Assembly: GCF_027945075.1 (NCBI RefSeq)
Contig: NZ_CP116034.1
Location: 1,550,001 to 1,614,000 of the forward strand
Direction of reading: 5' to 3'
Length of the DNA stretch: 64,000 nt
Source of the DNA: Chryseobacterium sp. CY350
GTDB taxonomy: Bacteria; Bacteroidota; Bacteroidia; Flavobacteriales; Weeksellaceae
Positions 1,011-31,267 of the stretch are shown piece after piece. A program made the translations under genes and the position numbers. Under the pieces are notes generated by a model, which did not search any database, was not told the DNA's origin, and saw only the letters and a list, made by a program, of their open reading frames with translations. Position 1 is the stretch's first letter. Each line of letters opens with the position of its first letter.

Positions 1011-1055
1011 CAAAGCTATTACAATCGACGGCGTCATGCTATGACATTAATCATA
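1011..1055 (-). promoter_or_regulatory. Crp/Fnr-type operator plus -7 element for the 945..1 operon
   Basis: The palindrome TATGACATTAATCATA lies at 1040-1055. The minus-strand -7 element TAGCTTTG lies at 1011-1018, a perfect TAnnTTTG match. The palindrome centre is 29.5 bp from the first T of the -7 element. No TTG is needed at -33 because the operator occupies that place, as in class II activation. Confidence 0.75.
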
Positions 1056-1076
1056 AAGCTTTTGGTATAATAAAAA

Positions 1077-1098
1077 GGGTCTCTACTACGAGAGACCC
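1077..1098 (-). terminator. rho-independent terminator of the catalase operon
   Basis: An 8-bp perfect stem GGGTCTCT/AGAGACCC with loop ACTACG is followed on the minus strand by TTTTTATTA. It lies 54 bp after the stop of the alcohol dehydrogenase gene and ends the five-gene operon that begins at 6426. Confidence 0.8.
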
Positions 1099-1152
1099 AT
1101 GATCAAAATAAGAATATAATACTTATCAAAATCCAATATTTTAAGTTCGTTA

Positions 1153-2319
1153 TTATTTCCAGGGATCTAAAACAACCTTCACACAGCCGTCTTCTTTTTT
1201 ATGAAATATCTCGTAGCCTTTTGCCACTTCGTCCAAAGCCAAACGATGCGTGATGATATCATCAAGTTTCACCTGTCCTGTTTCCACATAATTCAAAAGC
1301 TTATCGATAATCGGATGTACAGGAGCCTGACCTGCTTTTATAGTCAAACCTTTGTCAAACAGTTGACCTACTTTAAAATTATCATAATTCATCGGGTATA
1401 CTCCTAATATTGAGACAAAACCTCCTCTTTTCGCTCCACTCATACATGCTTCAAAAACTTTCACAGAACCTTTTTCAAAATTGATCACTGCTTTAGCGCG
1501 ATCAATTAAATCTCTATCTGGTTCGAAACCTACTGCGTCAATGCATACATCTGCACCACGACCATCGGTCATATCGCGGATCTGCTCTACGGTTTGCTCT
1601 GCATCTTCCCACAAAATAGTTTCACAGCCTGTCAATCTTGCGATCTGATCTAATCTGTATTGTTGGGTGTCGATGACAATTACCTTTTTGGCATTGTGTA
1701 AAATTGCACTTTTTACTGCCATTGATCCCACTGGTCCGGCACCGAAGATAGCCACGGTTTCATCCCCTTTCAAATCTGCCCACATTACCCCAGTGTAACC
1801 TGTAGGGAATATATCGGTAAGAAATAAAACCTGTTCATCTGTAAGGGAATCTGACACTTTTCTAGGTCCAAAATTAGCATACGGTACACGAACGTATTGC
1901 GCCTGACCCCCATCATAACCACCGTACAAATCTGCGTAACCAAACATACCGCCACCTTTTTCAGTTAAAATACCTCCCTCTGGACCATAGTTTTGAGGAT
2001 TGGAATGTTCGCAGCCTGAAGGCAAATCGTGTTGACAGAAATAGCATCCTCCACATGCGATAGGAAATGGAACGACAACACGGTCACCCACTTTAAGATG
2101 AGTAATATTGGTTCCGACTTCTTCAATAATCCCCATGAATTCATGACCCATCACCATGGGACGAGCCTGGGGAATTCCACCTGTGTACATATGCAAGTCG
2201 CTTCCGCAAATAGCGGTTGATGTCACTTTTAAAATAATATCATTCGGATCTTTGATGATCGGATCATCTACAATATCACAGGTAATTTTACCAGGAGCGT
2301 GAAAAACTGCTGCTTTCAT
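1153..2319 (-). CDS. zinc-dependent alcohol dehydrogenase, formaldehyde-dehydrogenase-like
   Basis: This is a 388-aa medium-chain dehydrogenase. The start at 2319 (MKAAVFHAPGKITCD) fits the family; the longer open frame adds 27 basic, non-conserved residues that overlap katE. It shows the catalytic-zinc motif GHEFMGIIEEVG, the four-cysteine structural-zinc loop (CGGCYFC...C) and the nucleotide-binding GAGPVGSMA. The insert GGGMFGYADLYGGYDGGQA is typical of the glutathione-independent formaldehyde dehydrogenase-like branch. It is the last gene of the catalase operon, 41 bp after katE, and a terminator follows. The substrate is not certain; an aldehyde or alcohol detoxified under stress is likely. 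Confidence 0.88.
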   Translation of the reverse strand: MKAAVFHAPGKITCDIVDDPIIKDPNDIILKVTSTAICGSDLHMYTGGIPQARPMVMGHEFMGIIEEVGTNITHLKVGDRVVVPFPIACGGCYFCQHDLPSGCEHSNPQNYGPEGGILTEKGGGMFGYADLYGGYDGGQAQYVRVPYANFGPRKVSDSLTDEQVLFLTDIFPTGYTGVMWADLKGDETVAIFGAGPVGSMAVKSAILHNAKKVIVIDTQQYRLDQIARLTGCETILWEDAEQTVEQIRDMTDGRGADVCIDAVGFEPDRDLIDRAKAVINFEKGSVKVFEACMSGAKRGGFVSILGVYPMNYDNFKVGQLFDKGLTIKAGQAPVHPIIDKLLNYVETGQVKLDDIITHRLALDEVAKGYEIFHKKEDGCVKVVLDPWK

Positions 2320-2360
2320 ATTTTTATATTTTGATTTGGTTAAATTTAATTTCTGAAAGT

Positions 2361-4502: not shown

Positions 4503-4570
4503 AAAAATTTCTTATTTGTCGTTTATCGTATTAATTATTAAAAGTCAGTAAGCTTTCCGAATGCTTTTGA

Positions 4571-5227: not shown

Positions 5228-5228
5228 G

Positions 5229-6448: not shown

Positions 6449-6522
6449 CAAAGTTATTACTGTATAACAAGCGAGATTATGACTAAGGTCATAGTACCAG
6501 AATTAAAACCTCTATATTTTTA
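6449..6522. promoter_or_regulatory. bidirectional Crp/Fnr-type operator with two -7 elements
   Basis: The perfect palindrome TATGACTAAGGTCATA is at 6478-6493. On the minus strand a perfect -7 (TAACTTTG, 6456-6449) lies 29.5 bp from its centre and serves the lipoprotein-katE operon. On the plus strand TATTTTTA (6515-6522) lies at the same 29.5-bp distance and would serve the two genes at 6567-8006, both of which are now pseudogenes. Confidence 0.78.
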
Positions 6523-6566: not shown

Positions 6567-7025
6567 ATGGAATATGATAGAATAGTATTAGTACTTAATG
6601 ATCTGCTTTAGATCACGAATAACTGAATCGAAGGCTTTGGAAAAGTAGAAGGAAAAGTTTGGGAAAGCTATCCTGATATTAAAGCTGAATATGATCGGAT
6701 GATTTCTCAATCCAAGATGATGAAAAATGAACTCATCAATATGATCAATGAGAAAGGAGGGCATCCCATTAACTCTCCTTCGATCCCTGGATCTTTACAC
6801 CGCACCTGGATAGACATCAAAAATTCCTTTACGATTGGAAACATTGAAGAATCAACTTTATCTAACGTGGTTTTCGGCGAGCAGGCGGCCATGAAAATTT
6901 ATCAAGCTGCGTTGGAGAGTGGCGATCTTTGCCATAAAAGCACGGAACTGGTAAAAGAACAGCTCAACAGTTTAAAAGTTTCACATGAGCAGTTTAAGAA
7001 GATCGAGGAATATAAAAGTCAATAG
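6567..7025 (+). pseudogene. DUF2383 (PA2169-type four-helix bundle) gene with two nonsense codons
   Basis: Reading from ATG 6567 gives a 152-codon frame that matches the intact 150-aa paralogue at 25996-26448 along its whole length, including LNDLL, ITN, EKGG, HRTWIDIKNSF and VVFGEQAA. Two in-frame stops interrupt it: TAG at 6609-6611 and TGA at 6624-6626. The TGA stands where the paralogue has the Arg of ITNDRI and may come from CGA. A shorter frame of 108 codons starts at 6699, but it lacks the first helix. The bundle is therefore probably not made. A second pseudogene follows 46 bp downstream. Confidence 0.85.
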
Positions 7026-7071: not shown

Positions 7072-8006
7072 ATGAATAGAGATGACCAAAATTCAGTTAA
7101 ATCCGACTGGAACGTACCGAGCGAAAACTCCCCTCTTGTGGATCCCACTACGAAACATCCAAAGCCACCATTTCAACAACAATTTTAACCGTTTTCCGGC
7201 TTGGTAAGTAAAATGATACCGATACCCGATCATGGAGAAAAATCATATAAAGGTTCTGGAAGACTCAGCGGAAGAAAAGCTCTAATAACGGGAGGAGATT
7301 CCGGAATCGGAAGAGCTGCTGCAATTGCCTACGCTAGGGAAGGTGCAGATGTAGCAATCAACTATTTACCAAATGAAGAACCTGATGCACGGAAGTTATA
7401 AAACTCATAGAAGAAACAGGAAGAAAAGCTGTTGCGATTCCCGGCGATTTGCGAGATGAATTTTTTTGTAATACACTGATTTTAAAGGCAGTTGAACAAC
7501 TGGGCGGTTTGGATATTTTAGTAAATAATGCCGGTCATCAGAAAACCCATGACAGCATTTTAGATATCAGTACCGAAGAATTTGACCGAACAATGAAGAC
7601 CAACATCTACGCGCCTTTCTGGCTAATCAGGGCAGCACTTCCGCACCTAAAGCCAGGTTCTTCAATCATTGGACTCTCTTCTGTTCAGGCATACGATCCA
7701 TCAAAAGATTTATACGATTATGCGCAGACCAAAGCAACTACCAGCTACATAAAATCATTGGCGAAACAATTAGGACCAAAAGGGATTCGTGTCAACGGTG
7801 TCGCACCGGGACCGGTATGGACCGAACTGGAAATTAGTGGCGGACAAACGCAGGAAAATATTGAAAAATTCGGAGGAGATACCCCACTCGGAAGACCGGG
7901 ACAACCCGCCGAGTTAGCTTCCATCTTCGTGCAACTGGCAGATAACGACGGTAGTTTTGCAACCGGGCAAATCTATGGTTCCGCCGGTGGCAGCGGGCAA
8001 CCGTAA
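7072..8006 (+). pseudogene. NAD(P)-dependent SDR (YghA type) with one nonsense codon and one frameshift
   Basis: The complete family pattern is present: an N-terminal extension with KHPKPPF, then [40 protein letters not shown] and a YAQTKA active site. Two lesions break it. TAA at 7186-7188 lies in the N-terminal extension, and one base appears to be missing near 7390, just after the codons for PDA. After that point the other frame continues as [20 protein letters not shown]. The result is three separated pieces: 7072-7185, 7201-7401 and 7449-8006. The family makes general stress oxidoreductases. It is probably a pseudogene unless the lesions are sequencing errors. Confidence 0.85.
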
Positions 8007-8122: not shown

Positions 8123-8719
8123 TTAATAAAAAATTTTACTGTTAATGATTTTTACAATATTTACCCGTTCCATCCTTTTAAACACGCGAATAACGGTCTC
8201 GACACGAAGCCCCGTAAGAGAAGCAACTTCGAGTCTTGTGTAAGGGATTTGATATGAAAAAGGCTCTGTTATTTTATGGTATTGTTTAAGGCTGTCCATC
8301 ACACAAAGTACTTTAATAAATGGGTTATTAGAAGATAAATTATTAAGCATTACATATCGGTAATGCATTCTTTGTGCAGTATATTGGTATAGTTTGAACA
8401 AAATCTTTTTATCACTATGAACCAAATCCAAAAACTTTGAAATAGATAAACGTATTATTGCTGTATCTGTCATTGCAACTGCATTAACTGGATATGGGAG
8501 TTCAGAAAAGATAAACGTTTCTCCGAGACAATGTCCAGTTGAAGGCAGACTATGAATAAATTCCCTACCTTCTTCGTGATAATTGGCAATCTTCACATCT
8601 CCTGAATGGATTTGATAATAAAATTTGGGAGTTTCTGATTCTCTAAATATAAAATCGTTTTTCTTAAAATTCAATAACTCTCCTCCATGACGAAAGAGTA
8701 GATTTTCATCGACTAACAT
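8123..8719 (-). CDS. Crp/Fnr-family transcriptional regulator 1 (198 aa)
   Basis: The protein has an N-terminal cyclic-nucleotide-binding-like beta-roll (about 10-110), a dimer helix, and a C-terminal winged helix with the recognition segment ASLTGLRVETVIRVFKRM (about 165-182). Glu and Arg of ETVxR, which read the TGA core in CRP and FNR, are kept, while the CRP Arg180 position is Val. The CRP phosphate-binding Arg-Ser pair is missing (the segment reads PYPVNAVA), and there is no N-terminal cysteine cluster. The ligand is thus neither clearly cAMP nor an FNR-type cluster. It is one of five paralogues of identical length in the island and has its own operator at 8859. Confidence 0.88.
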   Translation of the reverse strand: MLVDENLLFRHGGELLNFKKNDFIFRESETPKFYYQIHSGDVKIANYHEEGREFIHSLPSTGHCLGETFIFSELPYPVNAVAMTDTAIIRLSISKFLDLVHSDKKILFKLYQYTAQRMHYRYVMLNNLSSNNPFIKVLCVMDSLKQYHKITEPFSYQIPYTRLEVASLTGLRVETVIRVFKRMERVNIVKIINSKIFY

Positions 8720-8828: not shown

Positions 8829-8874
8829 TAAAGATAATAGTATAAGATATTTTAATCGTATGACCTTAATCATA
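8829..8874 (-). promoter_or_regulatory. Crp/Fnr-type operator plus -7 element for regulator 1
   Basis: The palindrome TATGACCTTAATCATA (8859-8874, extended by G and C outside) is centred 30.5 bp from the minus-strand -7-like element TATCTTTA (8836-8829). It suggests that regulator 1 is autoregulated or controlled by a paralogue. The leader would be about 105 nt. Confidence 0.7.
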
Positions 8875-9139: not shown

Positions 9140-10657
9140 ATGAATCGAGACGGAAACACAATCAGTTTTTGGCAATCTACGACTAACGTAAATCAACATC
9201 AAACTGCAAAAGCAAATAATCCCCAACATTATGACACCATAATTGTAGGAGCAGGGATAACCGGCGTAACGCTGGCGAAGGAACTGCAAAATAGAGGGCA
9301 AAAATGCCTAATCATAGAAAAGGCTAACGTTGGATTCGGAACGACAGGTGGAACGACAGCGCATATCAATAATTTTTTCGATTCTTCTTATGACGAAATC
9401 ATCTCCGATTTCGGAGAATATGGGGCAAAGACTCTGGCCAGTGCAGCGAAACAAACTATAAAATATATCCAGTCCAACATTCGTAAATACCATATTTCCT
9501 GCGAATACAATGAGTGCAGTTCTTTTGTTTTCAGTGCAGAAGAAAAACAAAATGACATGCTTGAAAAAATGTTCGATGCACATCAGCTGGTTGGAATTGA
9601 CACTGTAAAAGTTCATAGCATCCCTTTTACACTACCATTCGAAAATGCTATCGAAATAAAAGGTCAGGCACAATTTCATCCGTTACGGTATATTAATAAG
9701 CTGATTAAGGAATTTGAAAGGGAAGGTGGAGTAATACTTACCGCTACTCAAGTAACGGATTTCGAAAACAAGGACGGAAAAGTAAAAATCTTTGTTAATG
9801 AGGACGATTACTATACTGCAGATAATTTGGTCTGGGCGACTCATATTCCTCCGGGAAATAACCGTTTTAGTATACTCTTATCACCATACAGAAGTTATGC
9901 GGTAACCGCAAAATTAGGTAATCCGGTATCGCACATGGCTCAGGCCGCAGATTTATACGATCCCTATCATTATGTCAGATATCATAAATCAGATGATGAT
10001 TATTTTATCATTGTAGGTGGATATGACCATATGACAGGAGACGAGGATGACACTGAAAAACATTTTGCAGATCTTTTATCCTATGTTGACAAAAATTTTA
10101 AATACAGAAATATCACTGCGAAATGGTCTTCTCAATATTATGTACCTGCAGATGGACTGGCGTATATAGGACAGATGCCGGGGGAAAGAAACATTTACAT
10201 CTCAACGGGTTACAACGGTAACGGTATGACCTTCGGATCTATGGCATCACTCATAATTCCGGAATTGATGGAAGGGAAAATAACGCCCTTATCCAATCTG
10301 CTTGACCCCGGACGAATAAAACCTATAGCTAGTGCCCGAAATGTTCTAACAGAAGTTTTTAATGCGTCAGCGCATTTTGTTAAAGATAAATTTTCTGCGG
10401 AAAAAATAAAAGATCTTGATACCATAGTTGCGGGGGAGGGAAGAATAATCAAACACGATGGTGATACTATTGCCGCTTATCGTGACCAAAAATGTGAACT
10501 CCATCTGCTAAGCCCTGTATGTCCACATACAGGATGTAATGTTGTTTGGAACCCCTCAGAAGTTACTTGGGATTGTCCATGCCATGGATCCCGTTTTGAT
10601 ATCGATGGCACTTTATTAAATGGTCCAGCGATGTCAGATCTAAAAAAAATAGATTAA
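9140..10657 (+). CDS. FAD-dependent oxidoreductase with C-terminal Rieske domain
   Basis: This 505-aa fusion has an N-terminal DAO-type FAD domain: dinucleotide motif VGAGITGVTLAKEL (about residue 37), the segment GTTGGTTAHI, and a C-terminal FAD motif with GYNGNGMTFG (about 355). A Rieske [2Fe-2S] domain follows (about 430-500) with both ligand pairs visible, CPHTGC and CPCHGS. In this family electrons pass between the flavin and the cluster, but the substrate is unknown. It stands alone on its strand and is followed by a strong terminator. It is one of the few genes in the island without a clear palindromic operator. Confidence 0.9.
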   Translation: MNRDGNTISFWQSTTNVNQHQTAKANNPQHYDTIIVGAGITGVTLAKELQNRGQKCLIIEKANVGFGTTGGTTAHINNFFDSSYDEIISDFGEYGAKTLASAAKQTIKYIQSNIRKYHISCEYNECSSFVFSAEEKQNDMLEKMFDAHQLVGIDTVKVHSIPFTLPFENAIEIKGQAQFHPLRYINKLIKEFEREGGVILTATQVTDFENKDGKVKIFVNEDDYYTADNLVWATHIPPGNNRFSILLSPYRSYAVTAKLGNPVSHMAQAADLYDPYHYVRYHKSDDDYFIIVGGYDHMTGDEDDTEKHFADLLSYVDKNFKYRNITAKWSSQYYVPADGLAYIGQMPGERNIYISTGYNGNGMTFGSMASLIIPELMEGKITPLSNLLDPGRIKPIASARNVLTEVFNASAHFVKDKFSAEKIKDLDTIVAGEGRIIKHDGDTIAAYRDQKCELHLLSPVCPHTGCNVVWNPSEVTWDCPCHGSRFDIDGTLLNGPAMSDLKKID

Positions 10658-13194: not shown

Positions 13195-13239
13195 ACAATT
13201 TAGTGAAACATGAATCCAAACATTATGACTTTAGTCACA
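13195..13239 (-). promoter_or_regulatory. Crp/Fnr-type operator for the glycosyltransferase-glf operon
   Basis: TATGACTTTAGTCACA at 13224-13239 has one TATGA half and one CRP-like TCACA half. At the standard 29.5-bp spacing the minus strand reads TAAATTGT (13202-13195), a weak -7 match. Confidence 0.6.
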
Positions 13240-13687: not shown

Positions 13688-14455
13688 TTATTTATCTAAC
13701 AATGCGGACATATATTCACGATTCATTCTGGCAATGTTATCTAGTGAAATATGCTTTGGGCATTCGACTTCGCACGCACCAATAACCGAGCAGTTTCCAA
13801 AACCTTCATCATCCATTGCTTTAACCATGTTCAACACTCTGCGTTTTGCCTCTACCCTTCCCTGAGGCAATAGTGCCAGATGAGATACTTTTGCACCTAC
13901 AAAAAGCATTGCCGCACCGTTTGGGCAGCATGCTACACAAGCGCCACAGCTAATACAGGCAGCAGCATCCATTGCTTTATCTGCATCATCTTTATCAACA
14001 AGAATCGAGTTGGCGTCCAACGTATTCCCCGAGGTATTTACTGAAATAAAACCTCCTGCTGCCATAATCCTGTCAAAAGAACTGCGATCTACGATCAAGT
14101 CTTTAATTACCGGAAAAGCTGTACTTCGAAATGGTTCGATAACAATCGTTTGGCCATCATGGAACATTCTCATGTGGAGCTGACAAGTGGCAATTCCTGT
14201 GTCCGGACCATGAGCTATACCATTGATATATAAGGAGCACATTCCACAAATTCCCTCCCGGCAGTCATGGTCGAAGGCAATTGGTTCGTGATTTTGGTCA
14301 ATTAGATTAGCATTGAGCATATCAAGCATTTCCAGAAAGGACGACTCTGTGGAAACGTCAGATATTTTGTAAATCTCAAACCGTCCTTTTGTACGGCTAT
14401 TCTTTTGTCTCCAGATTTTTAAAGTTAAATTCAGGTTTTGTTTAGTATTCATCAT
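13688..14455 (-). CDS. sdhB: succinate dehydrogenase/fumarate reductase iron-sulfur subunit, orphan
   Basis: The 255-aa protein carries all three cluster motifs of SdhB/FrdB. The [2Fe-2S] ligands are in [10 protein letters not shown] with a later Cys, the [4Fe-4S] ligands are in [12 protein letters not shown], and the [3Fe-4S] site has Cys residues in [13 protein letters not shown]. It would link a flavoprotein subunit to the quinone-binding membrane anchor. Neither SdhA nor SdhC genes are nearby; its neighbours are unrelated stress genes. It may be a second B subunit swapped into the complex under the control of the operator at 14522, or a relic. Key residues are intact, so it is probably functional. 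Confidence 0.88.
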
Positions 14456-14492: not shown

Positions 14493-14566
14493 TAAAGTTA
14501 CAACCGAACAAACTGCCTTACTATGAGGATAGTCATAATCTAAGGCAGTTTTATCATGTATCTTTA
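14493..14566. promoter_or_regulatory. bidirectional Crp/Fnr-type operator nested in an 11-bp inverted repeat
   Basis: TATGAGGATAGTCATA lies at 14522-14537. The minus strand has TAACTTTA at 14500-14493 and the plus strand has TATCTTTA at 14559-14566, both exactly 29.5 bp from the centre. An outer inverted repeat AAACTGCCTTA/TAAGGCAGTTT (14510-14520 and 14541-14551) frames the operator. It serves the SdhB-like gene on the minus strand and the small gene on the plus strand. Confidence 0.72.
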
Positions 14567-14636
14567 TCTGGTGAAACACGAGGATGAATTCAAGGTTATG
14601 ATGGACGTGGATAAAATAACTAAAAACAAATATATT

Positions 14637-15209: not shown

Positions 15210-16052
15210 TCAATGACCCATCACACCTTTTAAACTGCCATTTTTTAAATCAAAACTGCATCCATCCGTAAGAATATGAACTTTTAAATTTTCAGCATAT
15301 ACTGCTTCACCCTTAGTTACGGTACCAATATTTGTTTGCATTAATTCTTTACCTGAAAGAATAACTGCCATCCCGGAGCCGATGCATTTCGCAATATTCC
15401 CCCGTTCAATCATGAGCGCAGTATCTTCTCCCAACCCAATCCCCCAATGGTCTTGATGTAGAATCGACGCATGTGCCAATCTGCTGAACCGCCCTCTGTG
15501 AACAAAATGTGTATCGATAATACACTTATCTATCAGACCTAAGCCTGACATCAATTTAATATCGCGATTCAGCATCGCTTCCCCATTTACGGCATCACTG
15601 ATAATAATTTTAGGCATACACATGGCTCCGGCACTTGTTCCTGCAATAAGGAAACCTTCTTCCGTTTTATATTTCTTGATTAAGATTTCACTAATCGCAG
15701 ATTCCTTCAAGTCATCACATATCTTATTCTGGTCACCACCTGTAAAAAAAACTGTGTTCGCAGCTTCCAGACGTTTAAAATAATGATCCGAATGTAATTG
15801 CTGATCGCAAAAATGTAGAAAATCATAATTTGTAAATCCGATCTCATTAAAAGTTTCGGTATAGATTTCCCGCATACTTTCCGGTTCTGAACTTGCCGTA
15901 GTAATGACTTCAATGCGGTCACCTTTGTGACGGGTTAAAAGCTTTAAGATTTCATGCGGTACAAAATCACGGTTAATCTTTTCCATCTCATTTTCTGAAT
16001 CGCTCCTGTCTTCATTTCCTCCGATTATCAATAATTTTCCTTTTGGCATCAT
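15210..16052 (-). CDS. cyanophycinase-like serine peptidase (S51 family)
   Basis: This 280-aa protein resembles cyanophycinase, which cuts multi-arginyl-poly-aspartate or related dipeptide polymers. The catalytic and binding motifs are all present: FTGGDQ (about 108), the nucleophile Ser in GTSAGAM (about 141), the His in DTHFVHRGRFSRL (about 183), and GIGLGEDTAL (about 212). There is no signal peptide. Directly upstream is a second copy in which these residues are lost. No cyanophycin synthetase is in the window, so the real substrate may be another isopeptide or acyl-peptide. Confidence 0.85.
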   Translation of the reverse strand: MMPKGKLLIIGGNEDRSDSENEMEKINRDFVPHEILKLLTRHKGDRIEVITTASSEPESMREIYTETFNEIGFTNYDFLHFCDQQLHSDHYFKRLEAANTVFFTGGDQNKICDDLKESAISEILIKKYKTEEGFLIAGTSAGAMCMPKIIISDAVNGEAMLNRDIKLMSGLGLIDKCIIDTHFVHRGRFSRLAHASILHQDHWGIGLGEDTALMIERGNIAKCIGSGMAVILSGKELMQTNIGTVTKGEAVYAENLKVHILTDGCSFDLKNGSLKGVMGH

Positions 16053-16096
16053 ACTTTTACCTATTTTAAGATTTAAATATTATTAATTATTATATA

Positions 16097-16918
16097 TTAC
16101 ACTGAATAACCTCCGTCCTGAAGGTTAATAGTTGAGCCATCAATCATCACTCGACCTTTTAAATTTTTCACATAAAAAGAACGATTCGGATTTTTAAAAT
16201 TCCCGCTTAAATGCTTTGTGTCCATTGCGTTGACCAGCATAATTGTACCATCACCTTTACACATCCCGACAAAACCGTTCTGCACAATCAATACCGTCCC
16301 ACTTCCCAATCCGATACCTAATAGGTCATGATGTTTAACTACGGTATAAGCAAGCTTATCATATCCTGTCCGTTGTGAATATTGTGAATCAATAATACAG
16401 TTATTCAAAAACCCCAATCCCTGCGTCAACTCAAGACATTTCTTGAAAGAATTTTCAGAAGTTGTGTTACAAATCATTTTACCGGGTATGTATAATGCCC
16501 CTTTGCTGACACCACTGATGGTAAAATACTGTTCCTGCATATATTTCATATGTAAAATATTTAAGATAGTGGTATCCTTTAACAAGGAATATAATTTTGA
16601 ATGATTCCCTACAAACAGTACCACGTTCGTTTTGGTTATTCTATTCACTACCTCAGCATTTGAAATACAATCTTCGGTAAAATGGATGCAATCAAAGTTT
16701 TTAAATCCAGATTGCGCCAACGCTTGTTTGTAGAACTTCTGATAAGATACATAAGATTCGGAATCCGATGTAATAATCTCTATTCGATCGATTTTCCTCT
16801 TAGTCAAGAAAGTCAACAATCCAGAAGATGCAGATTTTTTCGACCATTGATTATCTTCATTATCCAAACCTTCATTACAATTAATAAATACCAGTTTTCC
16901 TTTTGGGTGTATTGCCAT
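16097..16918 (-). CDS. degenerate cyanophycinase paralogue (probable pseudoenzyme)
   Basis: The 273-aa protein is collinear with its neighbour at 15210-16052 but has lost catalytic features. GGDQ is replaced by GNHS, GTSAGA by GVSKGA (Ser kept), DTHF by DSQY (His lost), and GLGEDTA by GLGSGTV (Glu lost). The frame is intact and well conserved in length, so it looks like a maintained pseudoenzyme and not a recent pseudogene. I chose ATG 16918 (MAIHPKGKLVF), which aligns with the neighbour's start and lies 10 bp after the lipoprotein stop; a longer start at 16945 would overlap that gene. Confidence 0.8.
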   Translation of the reverse strand: MAIHPKGKLVFINCNEGLDNEDNQWSKKSASSGLLTFLTKRKIDRIEIITSDSESYVSYQKFYKQALAQSGFKNFDCIHFTEDCISNAEVVNRITKTNVVLFVGNHSKLYSLLKDTTILNILHMKYMQEQYFTISGVSKGALYIPGKMICNTTSENSFKKCLELTQGLGFLNNCIIDSQYSQRTGYDKLAYTVVKHHDLLGIGLGSGTVLIVQNGFVGMCKGDGTIMLVNAMDTKHLSGNFKNPNRSFYVKNLKGRVMIDGSTINLQDGGYSV

Positions 16919-16928
16919 GATCAATAAT

Positions 16929-17135
16929 TTAATGTTGTGATTCATCCTGATCGTTTATCCTTTTGTTATCAAATGGCTGGCGACTAAGCGTATCTGATAT
17001 TTCCGGTACTGTCTTTATAGTGTCAGATTTTCTGTCATTAACGCTTTGTCTTGAATTATCCTTATCCTTGTATTGGGTTTCAGATTTTGTACAGCTTATC
17101 ACTAAAAAGAGGCTGAATGCTAATGTAAGTTTCAT
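16929..17135 (-). CDS. small lipoprotein, 68 aa
   Basis: MKLTLAFSLFLVISC is a short signal peptide with a lipobox Cys at residue 15. The mature part is polar and charged with no known domain. It leads the operon with the two cyanophycinase-like genes and has the best promoter of the island (operator 17184-17199 with a perfect -7). It resembles the lipoprotein at 6166-6426, which also opens an operon. Confidence 0.7.
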   Translation of the reverse strand: MKLTLAFSLFLVISCTKSETQYKDKDNSRQSVNDRKSDTIKTVPEISDTLSRQPFDNKRINDQDESQH

Positions 17136-17154: not shown

Positions 17155-17199
17155 CAAACCTACAAAAGATCATAACCTATTTTTATGACAAAAATCACA
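17155..17199 (-). promoter_or_regulatory. Crp/Fnr-type operator plus perfect -7 for the cyanophycinase operon
   Basis: TATGACAAAAATCACA at 17184-17199 is centred 29.5 bp from TAGGTTTG (minus strand, 17162-17155), a perfect TAnnTTTG match. The leader to the lipoprotein start is about 15 nt. Confidence 0.75.
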
Positions 17200-17352: not shown

Positions 17353-17398
17353 TGTGATCGAAATCATACGCATAAGCATGTCATTCTAGGTACTTTTG
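17353..17398 (+). promoter_or_regulatory. Crp/Fnr-type operator plus perfect -7 for regulator 2
   Basis: TGTGATCGAAATCATA at 17353-17368 has one CRP-like TGTGA half and one TCATA half. The plus-strand TACTTTTG at 17391-17398 is a perfect -7, 30.5 bp from the centre. The implied leader to the ATG at 17661 is about 255 nt and holds a conserved hairpin. Confidence 0.68.
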
Positions 17399-17660: not shown

Positions 17661-18257
17661 ATGTCTATCAAAGAAGATCTTCTTCACTCTGCAGGAGCAA
17701 CAGAAGAAAACTATAAAACCGGAGATTATATTTTCCACGAAAGTACCAGCGCACTATTTTATTATCAAGTAGTTACAGGCGAGGTTAAGCTTAACAATTA
17801 TAATACAGACGGAAAAGAATTTATCCAGAATATCCACTCTGCTGAAGCTGCACTGGGAGTATCCATGCTTTTTCTGGAAAAATCCTATCCTATGAATGCC
17901 GTTGCTATAAACAACTGTACGATATTAAAATTACGCCGAACCGACTTCTTCAAACTTTTGGAACTCCATCCAAAACTCTACAATGACGTATGCAAATCAT
18001 TATCAGACCGTTTATATAAAAAATACGTTGTTATGAAAGCCATCTCCTGCCATAATGCAGCGGAAAGACTTAAAGAGGTAATGCGGCTGATGAAACTTGA
18101 GCAGCCAAACCAGTTACCGTACACATTTGAGGTTCCACTGACAAGGCAGCAATTAGCATCACTAACTGGGCTCTGTTTGGAAACTACCATCAGAACGATT
18201 AAAAAGATGGAAAAAGAAAATGTACTGCGAATTCATAATCGGAAAATATTATTTTAG
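17661..18257 (+). CDS. Crp/Fnr-family transcriptional regulator 2 (198 aa)
   Basis: It has the same architecture and length as the four other paralogues: beta-roll ligand domain, dimer helix, winged helix with ASLTGLCLETTIRTIKKM. It is closest to regulator 4 (24303-24899), sharing the N-terminus MSIKEDLLHSAGATEE and the SCHNAAERL segment of the dimer helix. The ligand pocket deviates most: the usual GE before the phosphate-binding loop reads LGVSM, and the CRP Arg82 position is occupied by other residues (SYPMNAVA). cAMP binding is therefore unlikely. It converges on the NADH dehydrogenase gene with a gap of only 37 bp. Confidence 0.88.
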   Translation: MSIKEDLLHSAGATEENYKTGDYIFHESTSALFYYQVVTGEVKLNNYNTDGKEFIQNIHSAEAALGVSMLFLEKSYPMNAVAINNCTILKLRRTDFFKLLELHPKLYNDVCKSLSDRLYKKYVVMKAISCHNAAERLKEVMRLMKLEQPNQLPYTFEVPLTRQQLASLTGLCLETTIRTIKKMEKENVLRIHNRKILF

Positions 18258-18294: not shown

Positions 18295-19563
18295 CTATTT
18301 TCTGCTCACATCTTTTTTTGGATGTAAAATCAGCCTTATAGAAGGATTATTGGTTATAAAAAGGATAAACCAGTCAATTGCCAATCGAATTTTACTTCTG
18401 AATGATACCAGCGGTAAAACGTGAATAAATAACCATGTCATCCATGCAAAAAAACCTTTGAAGGAAAATGTGGGAAGATCGACGACCGCATTAAACTTAG
18501 AAATAATTGCCATACTACCTTTGTCATTATATGTAAATTCCTTCAGAGGTTTACCCGCGTTTATATTACGGAAATTCCTGCCTAAATTTTTTGCCTGCTG
18601 GATCGCAACTTGTGCCAATTGCGGATGTCCTTTGGGGAAATTCTTATCATTCAATTGTAAACATATATCTCCAAGGGCAAAAATGTTTTCGGCTCCTTTC
18701 ACTTTATTATAGGCATCGACATGGATTCTGCGCCCCTTACCAATGCTTATTTCTGGAAGTCCCGGTACTTCACGCCCTAGGACACCTGAGGTCCAAATTA
18801 GAGTCTCGGTATCAATTGTTTTTCCATCTGATAAAATAACTTGATTGTCGACAAAGTCCTGAACTGAGACGTCCAAAAGAATTTGCACGCCTAACTTCCG
18901 GAGAGCATCATATGCTGTTTTCTGAGCAGTTTTACTCATTGGCGACAATAGTGTAGGTAAAGCATCGATAAGATATATGTGAGATAAGCTTAATTTAATT
19001 TCAGGATATTCTTTCTCTGCAATGAATCTACCCATTTCAGCAAGCATCCCCGCTAACTCTACCCCTGTAGGACCGCCCCCAGCTATTACGATATTCTGCA
19101 ATTTTCCAGAAAGATGTTTAATTTTATTACGTGCGGCCTCTTCTAAAGTCAACAGGAGGTGATTTCTTAAGTACAAAGCTTCCTCAATATTTTTCATAGG
19201 CAATGCACATCGCTTAACATTCTCCATTCCGAAAAAATTTGTTTCTGTGCCAAAAGCTATGATGAGATAATCGTAGTGTATATTTCCAGTATCGGTTTCA
19301 ATAAAATTCTCTTCCTGATGAACATGAGTCATCGTACCCATATGAAAAGACACATTCTGGTAATCAACAATATACTTTCTGAAAGGATAGGTAATGTTCG
19401 ATGCCTGGATAAATGACGTAGCAACCTGATATATCAGGGGCGGGAAAAAGTGATAATTATTCTGATCAACAAAGGTTACCTGAAAATCAGAGTTATTCAC
19501 CAAAGACCTTATTAGATTAATACCTGCAAAACCTCCACCAACGATAACTATGTTTTTTTTCAT
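18295..19563 (-). CDS. ndh: type II NADH:quinone oxidoreductase (NDH-2)
   Basis: This 422-aa two-dinucleotide-domain flavoprotein oxidises NADH and reduces quinone without proton pumping. It has the FAD motif VGGGFAGINLIRSL at the N-terminus, the second Rossmann motif IAGGGPTGVELAGML (about 165), the ALGDI FAD-binding segment (about 297), and a C-terminal amphipathic/hydrophobic region (about 370-410) for membrane attachment. It is a peripheral inner-membrane enzyme. A promoter built on the operator at 19931 would give it a leader of about 330 nt, which is unusually long. The alternative is a closer promoter that I could not see. Confidence 0.88.
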   Translation of the reverse strand: MKKNIVIVGGGFAGINLIRSLVNNSDFQVTFVDQNNYHFFPPLIYQVATSFIQASNITYPFRKYIVDYQNVSFHMGTMTHVHQEENFIETDTGNIHYDYLIIAFGTETNFFGMENVKRCALPMKNIEEALYLRNHLLLTLEEAARNKIKHLSGKLQNIVIAGGGPTGVELAGMLAEMGRFIAEKEYPEIKLSLSHIYLIDALPTLLSPMSKTAQKTAYDALRKLGVQILLDVSVQDFVDNQVILSDGKTIDTETLIWTSGVLGREVPGLPEISIGKGRRIHVDAYNKVKGAENIFALGDICLQLNDKNFPKGHPQLAQVAIQQAKNLGRNFRNINAGKPLKEFTYNDKGSMAIISKFNAVVDLPTFSFKGFFAWMTWLFIHVLPLVSFRSKIRLAIDWFILFITNNPSIRLILHPKKDVSRK

Positions 19564-19901: not shown

Positions 19902-19946
19902 GAAAGGTAACATATCAAATATGGTAGTTCTATGACAAGAGTCATA
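19902..19946 (-). promoter_or_regulatory. Crp/Fnr-type operator, probably facing ndh
   Basis: TATGACAAGAGTCATA at 19931-19946 is a perfect palindrome in its arms. On the minus strand TACCTTTC (19909-19902) lies 29.5 bp from the centre. On the plus strand there is no fitting -7 at this spacing, so it probably faces ndh. Confidence 0.62.
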
Positions 19947-20002: not shown

Positions 20003-20047
20003 TATGACTAAAGTCATACCTGCTTAAATCATCTTCCTGTATTTTTA
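20003..20047 (+). promoter_or_regulatory. Crp/Fnr-type operator plus -7 for regulator 3 and ccoG
   Basis: TATGACTAAAGTCATA at 20003-20018 is centred 29.5 bp from TATTTTTA (20040-20047). The leader (to 20150) carries a hairpin AGAGGG/CCCTCT (20051-20065) and a palindrome AGGGATCCCT (20071-20080). Confidence 0.7.
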
Positions 20048-20808: not shown

Positions 20809-22263
20809 ATGTCAGAAATTGATGAAACAGAGCTCCGAGGAGGTCAGGGACAGGTTCTCGACCCAGAAACTTATCGTGATTCGATTGGTACAATGGAGCA
20901 GTCCGGAAAAAGAAAATGGGTCTTCCCAAAAAAACCTAAGGGCAGATATACTAATTATAGAAATTTAGTAGCTTATACATTATTATCATTTTATTTTGCT
21001 GTTCCATTCATTACCATCAACGGAAATCCTTTCCTGCAATTTGATCTTATTAACCGCCAGTTTTTCATTGTTGGACTCCCCTTCTATCCTCAGGATTTCT
21101 ACCTTCTAACTTTAGGTGCCATCGTATCATTAATCTGCATTATCATATTTACGATTGCATTTGGAAGAATTTTTTGTGGCTGGATATGTCCTCAAACTAT
21201 TTTTCTTGAAAACGTATTTAGAAAGATTGAGTATGCAATTGAAGGTGATCGTAACAAACAGATGAAACTAGATCGCCAGGAATGGAATGCAGAAAAGATA
21301 TGGAAAAGAGCTTTGAAGTGGACAATCTATGTAATTCTTTCTTTAATTTTCACCCACTTCATGTTCATGTATATTGTAGGATATAAAGAGGTTCTCCGGA
21401 TAGTTTCCGAAGGTCCATTTGCTCATCCTACTAATTTCATTGCCATGATTTTGCTAAGTGCCGCATTTTATTTTGTATTTGCCTGGTTCAGAGAACAGGT
21501 ATGCACTTTAGTTTGTCCATATGGGAGACTTCAGGGTGTGCTGATTGACAAAGAAACCATCAATGTTTTCTATGATTTTAACAGAGGTGAAAACCGCTCA
21601 AAATGGCGCAAAGGTGAAGATCGAAGAGCAGCTGGAAAAGGAGATTGTATCGACTGCTATCAATGTGTGGTAGTATGCCCGACCGGTATAGATATTCGAG
21701 ATGGACAGCAATTGGAATGTGTTAACTGTACTGCGTGCATAGATGCATGTGATGAAGTAATGGATAAAGTAGGACTACCGCGGGGTTTGGTACGATATGC
21801 AACAGAAACGGAGATTGAAACCCAGAAGCCAACTAAGTTCACGACCAGAATGGCTAGTTTTCTTGTAATACTGATAGGGTTACAATTTATCCTTGGTTTC
21901 ATGTTGTACAATCGAGGTGAAATGGAGGTTAAATTCATCAAACCTGCCGGAAGCACATTTTTCGTAAGAGATCAACATATTACCAATACCTACAATTATA
22001 CCTTTTTAAATAAATCGAATAAGAAAATAACAGTTACTATAAAAGTTTTAGAACCGGCGAACGGCGAGATTACGTACAGTGCCTCAAGTAAGATCATCGT
22101 ACAGCGAGATCAAATTACAAAAGGGTCAGTTAATATCAGTTTTCCTGAGAATGAGATGAAATTATCTAAACAGAATATCAGCATCGGGGTATTTAACGAA
22201 AAAGGTGAGATGTTGGATACTTATGACACCTATTTCGAAGGTCCATTTAAACTTCAATTTTAA
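20809..22263 (+). CDS. ccoG: cytochrome c oxidase accessory protein CcoG
   Basis: This 484-aa membrane ferredoxin-type protein has about five hydrophobic segments. Two [4Fe-4S] motif groups are visible (GRIFCGWICPQT near 120 and the ferredoxin-like CIDCYQCVVVCPTGID / CVNCTACIDACDE near 285-320), followed by a C-terminal Ig-like domain. CcoG helps copper delivery and assembly of cbb3-type cytochrome oxidase. Here it is apart from any cco structural genes and follows a Crp/Fnr gene, as a stand-alone unit closed by a terminator at 22296. Confidence 0.93.
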   Translation: MSEIDETELRGGQGQVLDPETYRDSIGTMEQSGKRKWVFPKKPKGRYTNYRNLVAYTLLSFYFAVPFITINGNPFLQFDLINRQFFIVGLPFYPQDFYLLTLGAIVSLICIIIFTIAFGRIFCGWICPQTIFLENVFRKIEYAIEGDRNKQMKLDRQEWNAEKIWKRALKWTIYVILSLIFTHFMFMYIVGYKEVLRIVSEGPFAHPTNFIAMILLSAAFYFVFAWFREQVCTLVCPYGRLQGVLIDKETINVFYDFNRGENRSKWRKGEDRRAAGKGDCIDCYQCVVVCPTGIDIRDGQQLECVNCTACIDACDEVMDKVGLPRGLVRYATETEIETQKPTKFTTRMASFLVILIGLQFILGFMLYNRGEMEVKFIKPAGSTFFVRDQHITNTYNYTFLNKSNKKITVTIKVLEPANGEITYSASSKIIVQRDQITKGSVNISFPENEMKLSKQNISIGVFNEKGEMLDTYDTYFEGPFKLQF

Positions 22264-23730: not shown

Positions 23731-23775
23731 CAAATGTAAAGACATGTATACACTTATTCTATGATAATAATCATA
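23731..23775 (-). promoter_or_regulatory. Crp/Fnr-type operator plus perfect -7 for the 23644..22467 operon
   Basis: TATGATAATAATCATA at 23760-23775 is centred 29.5 bp from TACATTTG (minus strand, 23738-23731), a perfect -7 motif. Confidence 0.75.
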
Positions 23776-23987: not shown

Positions 23988-24033
23988 TATGATCTAAAAC
24001 ATATTACTAGTCAATTTAATAAATGTAGATTTG
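23988..24033 (+). promoter_or_regulatory. degenerate Crp/Fnr-type operator plus perfect -7 for regulator 4
   Basis: TATGATCTAAAACATA at 23988-24003 differs from the consensus by one base in the right half (ACATA). TAGATTTG at 24026-24033 is a perfect -7, 30.5 bp from the centre, the same distance as in front of the sister gene at 17661. The leader is about 265 nt. Positions 23776-23987 hold nothing I can identify. Confidence 0.58.
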
Positions 24034-24302: not shown

Positions 24303-24899
24303 ATGTCAATCAAAGAAGAACTTCTGCACTCCATGGGAGCGACAGAAGAAGATTATAATCCCGGAGATTACATCTTCCGGGAAAACGGAAGTCCGCAATT
24401 TTATTACCAAATAATTTCAGGCGAAGTGAAATTAAACAACTACAATAGTGACGGTAAAGAATTTATTCAAAATATCCTGACCTGTGAAGATGCATTCGGA
24501 GAAGCAATGTTGTTTACTGAAAAAGCATACCCTATGAATGCCATTGCTCTGAGCCAGTGTATCATCATTAAAATTTGTAAGACCACCTTATTTGCCAATC
24601 TTACATTACATCCTGACCTCTACATGGAAGTTTGTAAATCGCTGTCCGAACGTCTTTACAGAAAGTTCGTATTAATGCAAAAAATATCTTGCCATAACGC
24701 TTCTGAAAGACTAAGAGAAGTGATAGAACTGATGAAAAAAGAACAGGAAAATCAAACACCCTACTCCTTCGAGGTTCCACTTACCAGACAGCAATTGGCA
24801 TCACTTACAGGTCTTTGCTTAGAAACTACAATCAGAACCATTAAAAGAATGGAGCGCGATAAAATGCTGCGGATTCACAACAGAAAAATTCTCTATTAA
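24303..24899 (+). CDS. Crp/Fnr-family transcriptional regulator 4 (198 aa)
   Basis: It is the closest paralogue of regulator 2, with MSIKEELLHSMGATEE at the start, SCHNASERL in the dimer helix and ASLTGLCLETTIRTIKRM as recognition segment. Unlike regulator 2 it keeps the GE of the ligand pocket (FGEAMLF), but it too lacks the CRP phosphate-binding Arg (AYPMNAIA). Promoter spacing and leader hairpin are shared with regulator 2, so both the gene and its 5' region were duplicated together. It is 62 bp upstream of a thioredoxin-reductase-like gene and is probably co-transcribed with it. Confidence 0.88.
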   Translation: MSIKEELLHSMGATEEDYNPGDYIFRENGSPQFYYQIISGEVKLNNYNSDGKEFIQNILTCEDAFGEAMLFTEKAYPMNAIALSQCIIIKICKTTLFANLTLHPDLYMEVCKSLSERLYRKFVLMQKISCHNASERLREVIELMKKEQENQTPYSFEVPLTRQQLASLTGLCLETTIRTIKRMERDKMLRIHNRKILY

Positions 24900-24961: not shown

Positions 24962-25876
24962 ATGACCAAAATTAAAAACAAGATATTTGATGTTATAGTG
25001 ATTGGTGGCAGTTATTCCGGATTGTCAGCAGCATTAGCCTTGGGGAGATTTTGTAGAGATATTCTGATCCTTGATCACAATTTCCCTACCAATCGTTCTT
25101 CTAGGAACACACAGAATTTTTTGACTCAAGATGGGGCAAAACGAAAAGAATTAGTGGTTAGAACTAAGGAGCAGATACTGAAATATCCCAGTATTACTTT
25201 CCTCACCGATTTTGCTATTGAGGGTGAGCGTACTGCTGATAGATTTTTAATTAAAACTGAAAAAGGCGATTTTTTTACCTCTAAAAAACTGATATTTGCT
25301 ACAGGCGTTCAAGACATGCTTCCAGAAATTCAAGGTTTTAAAGAATGCTGGGGAACGTCAGTAATTCACTGTCCTTATTGTCATGGATATGAACTGCGCA
25401 ATCTTAAAACTGTTATTTTTGGGAGCAGCGAATTTGCATTCAATACAGCAGCATTAATTCATACCCTCACATCAGACCTAACCATAGTCACTAAATCTTT
25501 ATCTGATTTCACAGATGTTCAGCTGGAAAATTTAAGACATTACAACATTAGAGTTTTTGAAAGTGCTGTTACAGAAATTCAACATTACCAAGGTCGTATG
25601 AACAAAATTAAACTAAAAAATAAAAATGTACTTGATGCCCAAGTTCTTTACACTTCGCTTCCCTTTTCACAAAGTTCAAAAATCCCGCAACAACTTGGCT
25701 GTAAAATCACCGACGCGGGCCTAATATCTATAAATCATGAACAACAAACCACGATTTCCGGAGTATATGCCTGCGGGGATAACTCATCGGGTATGCGCTC
25801 TGTGGCAAGAGCTGTATACACTGGCAGCTTAGCCGGAGCAGTGGTCAATCGAGAGCTAAGTAAAGAATCAACTTAA
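24962..25876 (+). CDS. thioredoxin-reductase-like NAD(P)/FAD oxidoreductase
   Basis: The 304-aa flavoprotein has the N-terminal FAD motif VIGGSYSGLSAALALG, the redox-active CPYCHGYE (about 139-146) and the C-terminal YACGDNSSGMRSVARAV FAD segment. The NADPH motif is weak (FGSSEFAF), which is common in this branch of stand-alone TrxR-like proteins. It may act on a small disulfide or peroxide-linked partner; no thioredoxin gene is adjacent. It follows regulator 4 in an operon and is closed by a bidirectional terminator. A fragment resembling its 5' end occurs at 31630-31657. Confidence 0.88.
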   Translation: MTKIKNKIFDVIVIGGSYSGLSAALALGRFCRDILILDHNFPTNRSSRNTQNFLTQDGAKRKELVVRTKEQILKYPSITFLTDFAIEGERTADRFLIKTEKGDFFTSKKLIFATGVQDMLPEIQGFKECWGTSVIHCPYCHGYELRNLKTVIFGSSEFAFNTAALIHTLTSDLTIVTKSLSDFTDVQLENLRHYNIRVFESAVTEIQHYQGRMNKIKLKNKNVLDAQVLYTSLPFSQSSKIPQQLGCKITDAGLISINHEQQTTISGVYACGDNSSGMRSVARAVYTGSLAGAVVNRELSKEST

Positions 25877-25978: not shown

Positions 25979-25995
25979 AATAAATAGATGCTTAA

Positions 25996-26448: not shown

Positions 26449-26498
26449 AATAAATATTTTAATTGGTGTTAATAAATTTTCACTACAGCTAAAACTGA

Positions 26499-27116: not shown

Positions 27117-27179
27117 AATAAAATTTAAATAGATTAGATGTATGTTGATATTGTTTAATTTTTCTCACTTTGCCGCAAT

Positions 27180-28145: not shown

Positions 28146-28150
28146 ATCGT

Positions 28151-29329: not shown

Positions 29330-29387
29330 AAAGAGTTTGTTTAAAGAAAACAATCAGACTGAATGATACAGTCTGATTGCTTTTTTA

Positions 29388-29948: not shown

Positions 29949-29985
29949 AATAGTAGATTTAAATGATTTTGTAAATTGTTATACA

Positions 29986-30030
29986 CAAATATCTATCATC
30001 TAAAAATGGGATTTTATGACATTAGTCATA
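29986..30030 (-). promoter_or_regulatory. Crp/Fnr-type operator for the DUF892 operon
   Basis: TATGACATTAGTCATA (30015-30030) is centred 29.5 bp from GATATTTG on the minus strand (29993-29986), a -7 match with one mismatch. Leader about 35 nt. Confidence 0.68.
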
Positions 30031-30560
30031 TAGATATGATACAGATCATTTAATAATACAATACTCTCTAATTAAATGAGTATTAAACAAATGAACAGCT
30101 CATAATAAATAATGAAGAAAAATGCAATTTTTTGGAAAAGAAGTACTATACAATTTAATCCTCAATAATATTATTCACTGTTCATGGAATTATAGAAGAA
30201 TATGGTCTTTTACATGGATACTTTACTAGATGTGTAAATTAAAGGTGGAGATAAAGGTAGAAATAATGAATCAGAAGACTGTTTTCATGTAGTTTGTATC
30301 AGATTCAATACTGCGGAACTCTTAATTCAAACATTATATCAATACGAGTGATAATCATATTAAAAAAATATTTGGATCAGCAGTAATTTCAGAACTGAAG
30401 ATAGATTTTATGACTGAATATTTTTGCTTTAAAAAGACATTCTATGACCATATTGAGAATTATCAGAAGATTCCAGTAATCTACAGGTTGAAAAATCCAT
30501 TGACCGAGTCACATCCCTAATATTAGTTCGAACTTTAACGATCTATAGAATTTTATAAAA
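30031..30560. other. 530 bp without genes
   Basis: This AT-rich stretch lies between the DUF892 operator and the end of regulator 5. I see no coding frame with credible content, no strong hairpin and no second palindrome. Isolated TATGAC half-sites near 30406 and 30444 have no partner. Confidence 0.5.
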
Positions 30561-31157
30561 TCAAATGAAGACTTTACCGTTAATAATCTCAACTAAGTTC
30601 TCACACTCCATTATTTTAATGGTTCGTATGACAGTCTCAACCCGCAAACCTGTTAATGAAGCCAACTGCTGCCTTGTGAAGGGAACTTCAAATCTCTTAG
30701 ATATTGAGTGATTATTCATTTTTTTAAAGTGGTCAATTACAGTAACTATTTTAGTACGGGGCTCACCGTAGGCGATTTTGTTAATCAGTGTCATTCTGTA
30801 AACGTCATTTTCAGAGATGTAGTGAAGAAGTCTGTACATTAAGCCTGAATAATCTTTTATGAGTTCTTTAAACTTCGTTTTAGACAGTACATAAATGTTA
30901 CACTGATTTAAAGCTACTGCATTAATACTATAGTGACTCTCTGAAAATAGAAATGTTTCACCAACCGGATCACCGGCGTAGGCAAAACCATGAATAAATT
31001 GATTGTTCCCCTTTTTATCGCTTGTAAGTTTCATACATCCACTTTTAACCTGAAAATAATGGTCTGGAATTCCATCTACTGAAAATAGATGTTTATCCTT
31101 GGTAAGAGTTATTAATTCAGCGTCATATGCTGTGAGCAGCTTTTCATTAATAATCAT
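30561..31157 (-). CDS. Crp/Fnr-family transcriptional regulator 5 (198 aa)
   Basis: It has the same length and layout as the other four. Recognition segment ASLTGLRVETVIRTIKIM; ligand segment VGETFLF followed by HYSINAVA, again without the CRP Arg. It is more diverged from the others in the beta-roll (MIINEKLLTAYDAELITL). It has its own operator at 31252 and lies alone, next to the presumed end of the integrative element. Confidence 0.87.
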   Translation of the reverse strand: MIINEKLLTAYDAELITLTKDKHLFSVDGIPDHYFQVKSGCMKLTSDKKGNNQFIHGFAYAGDPVGETFLFSESHYSINAVALNQCNIYVLSKTKFKELIKDYSGLMYRLLHYISENDVYRMTLINKIAYGEPRTKIVTVIDHFKKMNNHSISKRFEVPFTRQQLASLTGLRVETVIRTIKIMECENLVEIINGKVFI

Positions 31158-31222
31158 AATATAACTTTATTTGGAAGTTTACTACAATAATGATTTATAA
31201 ATATCATACGTTATAGAATAAT

Positions 31223-31267
31223 CTAATATATAAAGTATCTGCTAGCTACAGTATGACCATAATCACG
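31223..31267 (-). promoter_or_regulatory. Crp/Fnr-type operator for regulator 5
   Basis: TATGACCATAATCACG at 31252-31267 matches the consensus except for the last two right-half bases. At 29.5 bp the minus strand reads TATATTAG (31230-31223), a -7 match with one mismatch. From here to 31530 I see nothing else. Confidence 0.55.

Follow-up and report, generated by a model that had tools for sequence, protein, structure and literature searches.

Here we describe a 64,000-nucleotide stretch of the Chryseobacterium sp. CY350 genome (contig NZ_CP116034.1, positions 1,550,001 to 1,614,000; hereafter the window, numbered from its first letter), the first 31 kb of which hold thirteen palindromes of the type TATGA-N6-TCATA upstream of catalase, redox and regulator genes, including five genes for 198-residue Crp/Fnr-type proteins. 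An earlier note on this DNA, in which these five proteins do not appear, had proposed that each palindrome lies at a fixed distance from a TAnnTTTG-like -7 box and that the island is a self-contained regulon. We have followed this architecture through the genome, the genus and the family, and consider it probable, from sequence comparison, that it marks a class II Crp/Fnr regulon common to the lineage, with one operator serving many diverged sensors.

Palindromes and -7 boxes in the window

All thirteen palindromes were found where they had been claimed (Table 1). Eight match TATGA-N6-TCATA exactly; those at 13224, 17184, 17353 and 23988 have one mismatch and that at 31252 has two. The window as a whole contains 18 matches with at most one mismatch, compared with a mean of 4.61 and a maximum of 10 in 100 dinucleotide shuffles. 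The TAnnTTTG-like box was scored on its six key letters, with 5/6 as the threshold and 6/6 as perfect, and the six boxes previously called perfect (1011, 6449, 17155, 17391, 23731 and 24026) are so by this measure. A centre-to-box distance of 29.5 or 30.5 bp, claimed for every site, holds for twelve of the thirteen, where one strand or both carry a box that reaches 5/6 or better; at 13224 the box reaches only 4/6. Counted on both strands of the thirteen sites, boxes of at least 5/6 occur 11 times at 29.5 bp and three times at 30.5 bp, against a mean of 0.36 per offset. The view that such sites precede nearly every operon of the island is fair in its count of at least 12 operons for the window, but at least one gene of the first 31 kb, that at 9140-10657 (+), lacks a box at this spacing, and the assignment of 7449-8006 (+) to one is ambiguous. 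The right-hand 33 kb had been described as free of sites; indeed, none of at least 14 bits (by the weight matrix introduced below) lies beyond 31267, the best scoring 9.8 bits.

Table 1. Operators with their -7 boxes, regulator genes and right flank of the island (window coordinates; fractions are box letters matched out of six)
Feature	Position	Strand	Genes and remarks
Operator 1040, perfect box 1011-1018, spacing 29.5	1011..1055	-	Before 319-945 (208 aa, no Pfam family)
Operator 6478-6493, perfect box 6449-6456	6449..6522	-	Before likely operon 6426-1153 (inferred from gene order): small protein, SDR, DUF6766, KatE catalase, ADH
Second box at operator 6478 (5/6)	6515-6522	+	Towards 6699-7025
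Operator 8859, box TATCTTTA (5/6) at 30.5	8829..8874	-	Before Crp gene 8123-8719
Operator 13224, weak box TAAATTGT (4/6)	13195..13239	-	Before glycosyltransferase and UDP-galactopyranose mutase genes 13172-10949
Operator 14522, 5/6 boxes on both strands at 29.5	14493..14566		- side towards Fe-S protein 13688-14455; + side, short open reading frame ending 14870, in-frame ATG at 14598
Operator 17184, perfect box	17155..17199	-	Before peptidase S51-like genes 16945-15210
Operator 17353, perfect box at 30.5	17353..17398	+	Before Crp gene 17661-18257
Operator 19931, box TACCTTTC (5/6)	19902..19946	-	Before NDH-2 gene 18295-19563
Operator 20003, box TATTTTTA (5/6)	20003..20047	+	Before Crp gene 20150 and CcoG/FixG gene 20809-22263
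Operator 23760, perfect box	23731..23775	-	Before MpPF26-domain and CinA-like genes 23479-22467
Operator 23988, perfect box at 30.5	23988..24033	+	Before Crp gene 24303 and FAD oxidoreductase 24962-25876
Operator 30015, box GATATTTG (5/6)	29986..30030	-	Before likely operon 29948-25996 (DUF892, GSDH, DUF4142, DUF2383)
Operator 31252, box TATATTAG (5/6)	31223..31267	-	Before Crp gene 30561-31157
Crp/Fnr-type regulator, 198 aa	8123..8719	-	PF00027; PF13545 score 25.1, below cut-off 27
Crp/Fnr-type regulator, 198 aa	17661..18257	+	PF00027, PF13545; Cys in recognition helix
Crp/Fnr-type regulator, 198 aa	20150..20746	+	PF00027, PF13545
Crp/Fnr-type regulator, 198 aa	24303..24899	+	PF00027, PF13545; Cys in recognition helix
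Crp/Fnr-type regulator, 198 aa	30561..31157	-	PF00027, PF13545; longest end branch among own copies in tree
Island right flank	31680..39932		Topoisomerase, DUF4099/DUF3945, helix-turn-helix protein, RadC (+), tyrosine integrase 37869-39116 (-), three tandem tRNA-Asp genes

Spacing and promoter geometry

With a weight matrix built from the thirteen window sites we scanned another 20 stretches of this genome, of which 12 surround earlier matches or regulators and eight serve as controls. The scan returned 22 new sites of at least 14 bits, one of which lies in a control stretch. Sixteen of the 22 have a box of at least 5/6 at the expected distance (11 at 29.5 bp and five at 30.5 bp), a count that becomes 12 of 18 without the four sites of one stretch (L031) that was picked because full promoters were already known there. 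Perfect boxes number nine at 29.5 bp and three at 30.5 bp, compared with a mean of 0.08 per offset.

A cleaner test of the spacing came from 80 loci, the best 80 of 583, which were picked by the regulator protein alone from Chryseobacterium, Epilithonimonas and one other Weeksellaceae bacterium and together comprise 831 kb. These loci contain 144 sites of at least 14 bits, compared with two in the reversed control, and 70 of the 80 have sites. At offsets of 27.5, 28.5, 29.5, 30.5 and 31.5 bp from the palindrome centre, perfect boxes number 1, 0, 76, 37 and 0, respectively. The spacing given in the earlier note thus holds here too: between 28.5 and 31.5 bp, perfect boxes stand only at its two distances.

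Since the -7 box TAnnTTTG occupies -12 to -5 in Flavobacterium psychrophilum, according to excerpts of PMC9723704, the palindrome centre would fall at -41.5 or -42.5. The class II-like geometry suggested earlier is strongly supported by this box position, as given in those excerpts, and by the all-or-none spacing in independently chosen loci. The earlier suggestion that the palindrome replaces the usual -33 TTG may be right, as a TTG 19-24 bp upstream of the box is present in two of 68 promoters and in 31 of 266 comparison promoters; but these comparison promoters show no peak of TTG either, and the palindrome overlaps the position. We also considered a tie between the 30.5-bp spacing and regulator promoters, suggested by our own genome, and dropped it, because the 34 regulator promoters with a box divide into 15 at 30.5 bp and 19 at 29.5 bp.

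Spread through the genome

Across the whole genome (4.09 Mb) there are 28 exact palindromes, compared with six in a backwards control. Full promoters, defined as ATGA-N6-TCAT plus a perfect box at the right distance, number 18 against none in the control, and only three of them lie in the window. The other 15 lie at about 0.14, 0.67, 1.10, 1.40-1.41, 1.54-1.55, 2.86 and 3.82 Mb. Sites cluster at 1.40-1.41, 1.53-1.58 and 3.82 Mb, with further ones elsewhere. The idea of a regulon self-contained within the island therefore fails, as both sites and regulators occur at several other places in the genome and in related genomes.

A family of Crp/Fnr-type regulators

The five window proteins all have the order PF00027 (cNMP-binding) followed by PF13545 (Crp helix-turn-helix), in one case with a helix-turn-helix score below the cut-off. 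With one window copy as query, the genome yields 19 matches, two of them distant; with another, it yields 17 at 1e-15, namely 16 unbroken frames (the start of one, at 1413383, is not verified) and one broken. The broken copy, at 1548226-1548654 (L021:18226-18654), has a 19.5-bit operator and a perfect -7 box upstream.

Identity among the copies is unevenly distributed. In the 16 own-genome copies the helix-turn-helix is on average 64% identical, the sensor 41% and the C-helix 29%; for all 101 rows of the alignment the corresponding values are 68%, 50% and 48%. The recognition helix follows the pattern [RCSA]-[VILT]-E-T-x-[IV]-R, with Glu174 in 101 of 101 rows and Arg178 in 100, the exception being an own copy (L015) with Ser in its place. 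Position 172, at the start of the helix, varies among Arg, Cys, Ser and Ala. Cys replaces Arg there in 43 of 101 rows, including two of the window copies (24303-24899 and 17661-18257), and a thiol switch on DNA binding is possible for these proteins. The residue that we take to correspond to CRP Arg180 is Val, Ile, Leu or Thr, which would fit a half-site without the first G.

Several features of the classical family members were sought in these proteins. Three of the five window copies scored 56, 55.5 and 46.2 bits against the NCBIfam CRP equivalog, whose cut-off is 266. The Arg82-Ser83 pair of the cAMP pocket is absent from the family profile, which has Tyr-Pro in its alignment to two solved CRP chains. 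As for the N-terminal [4Fe-4S] cysteines of FNR, none of the 22 rows listed has a Cys within reference positions 1-40; one own copy (own_L004) carries one further out, in an N-terminal extension with an uncertain start codon. Excerpts of PMC8510549 assign Flavobacteriales Crp/Fnr homologues loosely to MalR.

In a tree of the 101 rows, sampled from the regulator-picked 80 loci and the own copies (L112, of 159 aa, was left out), four of the 16 own copies pair with other species and 12 fall into two own-only groups of six, one of which is weakly supported. Other genomes contain matches of 63 to 82% to the regulator at 24303.

Regulator promoters and the shared operator

The promoter stands within 600 bp of twelve of the 17 own regulator genes, compared with none of 113 control open reading frames having even a site. 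In a set of 92 regulator genes, 52 have a 12-bit site within 600 bp, 34 of these with a box. The half-sites at these 52 genes (two of which, own_L011 and own_L013, use one common site) are exactly TATGA in 94 of 104 cases, and the DNR/NnrR format TTGAT-N4-ATCAA is not matched. Regulators with Arg (35 genes), Cys (15) or Ser (2) at the start of the helix have similar half-site preferences. For protein pairs diverged by over 40% (1121), the operators differ at 3.1 of 16 bases; for pairs diverged by less than 20% (28), they differ at 2.5.

Distribution in the genus and family

Within the genus, 112 of 118 genomes carry the regulator (E 1e-20), and the 118 genomes contain 485 full promoters compared with two in the control. 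The number of full promoters rises with the number of regulator matches (Spearman 0.61). Genomes without any full promoter comprise all six that lack the regulator and seven of the 112 others. Our own genome leads with 17 matches, followed by one with 14, a rank favoured by the use of its own copies as queries, and match counts include fragments. In the family outside the genus, a site is found in 27 of 36 regulator-bearing and four of 30 regulator-less genomes (Fisher 5e-7). A looser pattern extends to a sister family, with 168 matches compared with seven in the control (29 genomes). Separately, one genome of another family of the phylum (G271) has 22 full promoters against none in the control, with one regulator match among the 10 of 21 candidates scored, and perhaps represents an independent large regulon.

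Genes behind the promoter

Targets in our own genome were taken as genes behind a full promoter, with operons inferred from gene order. They include two long-form KatE genes out of three in the genome (that at 1.370 Mb lies outside the examined set), two DUF892 genes, DUF4142, DUF2383, a KGG protein and CinA-like proteins, as well as NDH-2, two CcoG genes, a CcoN-FixO fusion at 3.82 Mb, short-chain dehydrogenases, and FabH-like and YqcI proteins. In the 80 loci, promoters lead into KatE 29 times (34 KatE-like open reading frames), DUF892 29 times (32) and KGG 17 times (18), high rates that reflect the choice of loci by a nearby regulator, sampling by target giving lower ones. Long-form KatE is missing from all four regulator-less genomes and from seven of the 56 others among 60 genus genomes.

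In G303, a genome from another genus, a comparable island carries KatE, NDH-2, DUF892, the FAD-Rieske protein and three regulators, with perfect boxes at all six of its sites. In a genome with one regulator match (G281), the regulator's cluster also contains a nos operon with an operator about 0.6 kb ahead of it; Pfam identifies the nosZ-like, NosL and NosD genes and ABC parts. A further genome (G299) has the same nos gene order and sizes, known from order and size alone. In the tree, a branch of 3.15 sets the nos-linked regulator copies well apart from the rest. Taken together, KatE, DUF892, KGG and the cbb3 oxidase, with the nos operon in a relative, suggest an output in redox and general stress.

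Two further gene arrangements were observed. The COX1 and FixO domains of cbb3 oxidase are joined in one frame in two genes, L021:14473-16734 and L027:28-1962 (the latter partial). At L021:4698-7262, apparently behind an operator, an 854-residue protein combines RimK-like ATP-grasp and Mur ligase domains; we take it to be cyanophycin synthetase-like, and the peptidase S51-like pair of the window (15210-16945) to be cyanophycinase-like. Because the synthetase-like gene and the two S51-like genes all seem to stand behind operators, a cyanophycin-like polymer may possibly belong to this regulon.

The right edge of the island

The genes at 31680-39932 probably form the right edge of an integrative or mobile element. 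No 15-mer of 39500-39760, around one tRNA-Asp gene, recurs elsewhere in the 124 kb examined as an integration-site repeat, and for want of such a direct repeat the left edge of the island is unproven.

Discussion

In the regulon that we consider probable, a predicted dimer would bind TATGAy-N4-rTCATA, with its centre near -41.5 (or -42.5), and would keep sigma-A RNA polymerase on a TAnnTTTG -7 box that apparently lacks an obvious -33 element. As one recognition helix has been kept while the sensor and C-helix diverged, the copies should read the same operator; and as 12 of 17 regulator genes stand behind that same promoter, they should activate themselves and each other. We infer both binding by each copy and activation, and likewise the signals sensed, most likely oxygen, nitric oxide or redox. 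Several sensors would thereby share one output set: KatE, DUF892, KGG, cbb3 oxidase, CcoG, NDH-2 and short-chain dehydrogenases.

A number of observations weigh against so uniform a picture. Five of the 17 own regulator genes have no promoter within 600 bp, and among relatives' regulator genes 31 of 80 have a 12-bit site within 500 bp and 23 of 79 have a site with a box of at least 5/6 within 600 bp. Operators drift slightly with their proteins (Mantel r 0.165, p 0.01), so that some specificity may differ. When loci are sampled by KatE, a promoter lies within 1.5 kb in 15 of 30 (reversed control, sites in 0 of 30), a lower bound since a flank of this length misses even the window's own KatE; with DUF892 as the basis of sampling, a site is present in 12 of 30 and a site with a box in eight of 30 (reversed control, one of 30). 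In the 80 loci there are 21 promoters for 35 copies of CinA-like genes, and 20 of 38 query proteins have no relative behind a promoter, most of these having no or few copies there. A 15.2-bit palindrome stands 109 bp upstream of the Mn-catalase gene, without a box at the set distance. Four regulator-less genomes of the family do have a site, and of the four regulator-less genus genomes that could be placed (two are unplaced), three are close kin and one stands apart, so that the genus-level p value overstates independence.

The broken own copy and the slight operator drift raise the alternative that one or a few copies bind the operator, the others reading different DNA or decaying as duplicates that retain an old promoter. 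Variation among Arg, Cys, Ser and Ala at position 172, and the loss of Arg178 in L015, point the same way. We think this rather unlikely, given that Glu174 and Arg178 are otherwise constant through the alignment, that TATGA half-sites are common to the Arg, Cys and Ser classes, and that site number rises with regulator copy number. The palindrome could instead be a repressor operator or the site of another factor, with the regulator genes as mere travelling neighbours, and boxes on both strands at 14522 (5/6 each) and 6478 (perfect on the - strand, 5/6 on the + strand) would suit such a role. However, the exclusive spacing of 29.5 or 30.5 bp is expected of polymerase contact and unnecessary for repression, TGA-N6-TCA is a Crp/Fnr format, and the palindrome co-occurs with the regulator family across 118 genus and 66 other family genomes, all of which makes this quite improbable. 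As for the earlier proposal of a regulon restricted to the island on one mobile element, the thirteen sites and five regulators packed into 31 kb beside an integrase and tRNA-Asp genes, with no 14-bit site to the right, explain its appeal; with 15 of 18 full promoters outside the window, regulators likewise elsewhere, and the same architecture across genus and family (in looser form in a sister family), it is refuted as stated and we give it almost no credence.

We are more hesitant about an extension of the lineage-wide regulon, which we regard as an open contender that falls somewhat short of favoured: a fan-in network in which as many as some 17 diverged sensors of one cell, alike in their reading head, use a single class II operator jointly or in competition and feed different signals into one stress and redox output. 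Such a network may have grown by copying of a regulator of nitrous oxide or micro-oxic respiration together with its promoter, and its members may activate each other through their own promoters. To our knowledge, these bacteria lack RpoS; if the extension is true, the network would serve as a general stress regulon in its place.

Duplicated regulators are commonly expected to persist by diverging in the operators that they recognise. In this single genome, many copies seem to have retained the operator while their sensors drifted, which provides a test case for models of paralogue insulation. The analysis also offers an explicit and testable activator code for Bacteroidota, made up of the palindrome, the -7 box and the distance between them, and proposes a candidate general stress regulon in Chryseobacterium and related bacteria.

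Comparison with known systems

A literature search that reached few subscription journals brought up no description that we recognised of this operator or network, and little in print on activators at atypical sigma-A promoters of Bacteroidota. A related case within the phylum is PgRsp of Porphyromonas gingivalis, likewise a Crp/Fnr-type redox regulator and reported to regulate its own gene; it differs in being a single haem-binding protein, and we found no common operator or multi-copy network described in excerpts of PMC6955866.

DUF892 proteins are presumably YciF-like. With this equivalence, the outputs, and these only, resemble the RpoS regulon, as KatE, KGG (YciG-like) and DUF892 genes are under the promoter here (compare excerpts of PMC2907692 and PMC5363993). 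The likeness to part of a general stress regulon follows from the RpoS dependence of katE and yciGFE in E. coli O157:H7 given in the available sections of PMC2907692. The regulation differs, with a sigma factor there and predicted Crp-type activators here, and katN is RpoS-dependent there, whereas its Mn-catalase counterpart here has the palindrome without a box at the set distance (PMC2907692 and PMC5363993, in part).

The nitrogen-oxide regulators provide a second parallel. DNR and NnrR respond to nitric oxide through haem. Like the proteins described here, DNR, NnrR and HcpR are Crp/Fnr proteins at FNR-like palindromes (PMC1274295, in part), and in G281 and G299 the present operator stands before a nos operon. 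The consensus sites given in excerpts of that paper, CTTGAT-N4-ATCAAG for DNR and TGTGA-N6-TCACA, TTGAC-N4-GTCAA or GTAAC-N4-GTTAC for HcpR, nevertheless differ from the TATGA operator.

There is also a structural likeness to the class II promoters of E. coli CRP/FNR and FixK, which share the Crp fold, the TGA half-site core, a centre near -41.5 and perhaps the lack of a recognisable upstream sigma element. The half-site here is TATGA, compared with TGTGA for CRP and TTGA for FNR. Unlike those systems, the promoters of this lineage have a TAnnTTTG -7 box rather than a -10 element, and many regulator copies would share one operator.

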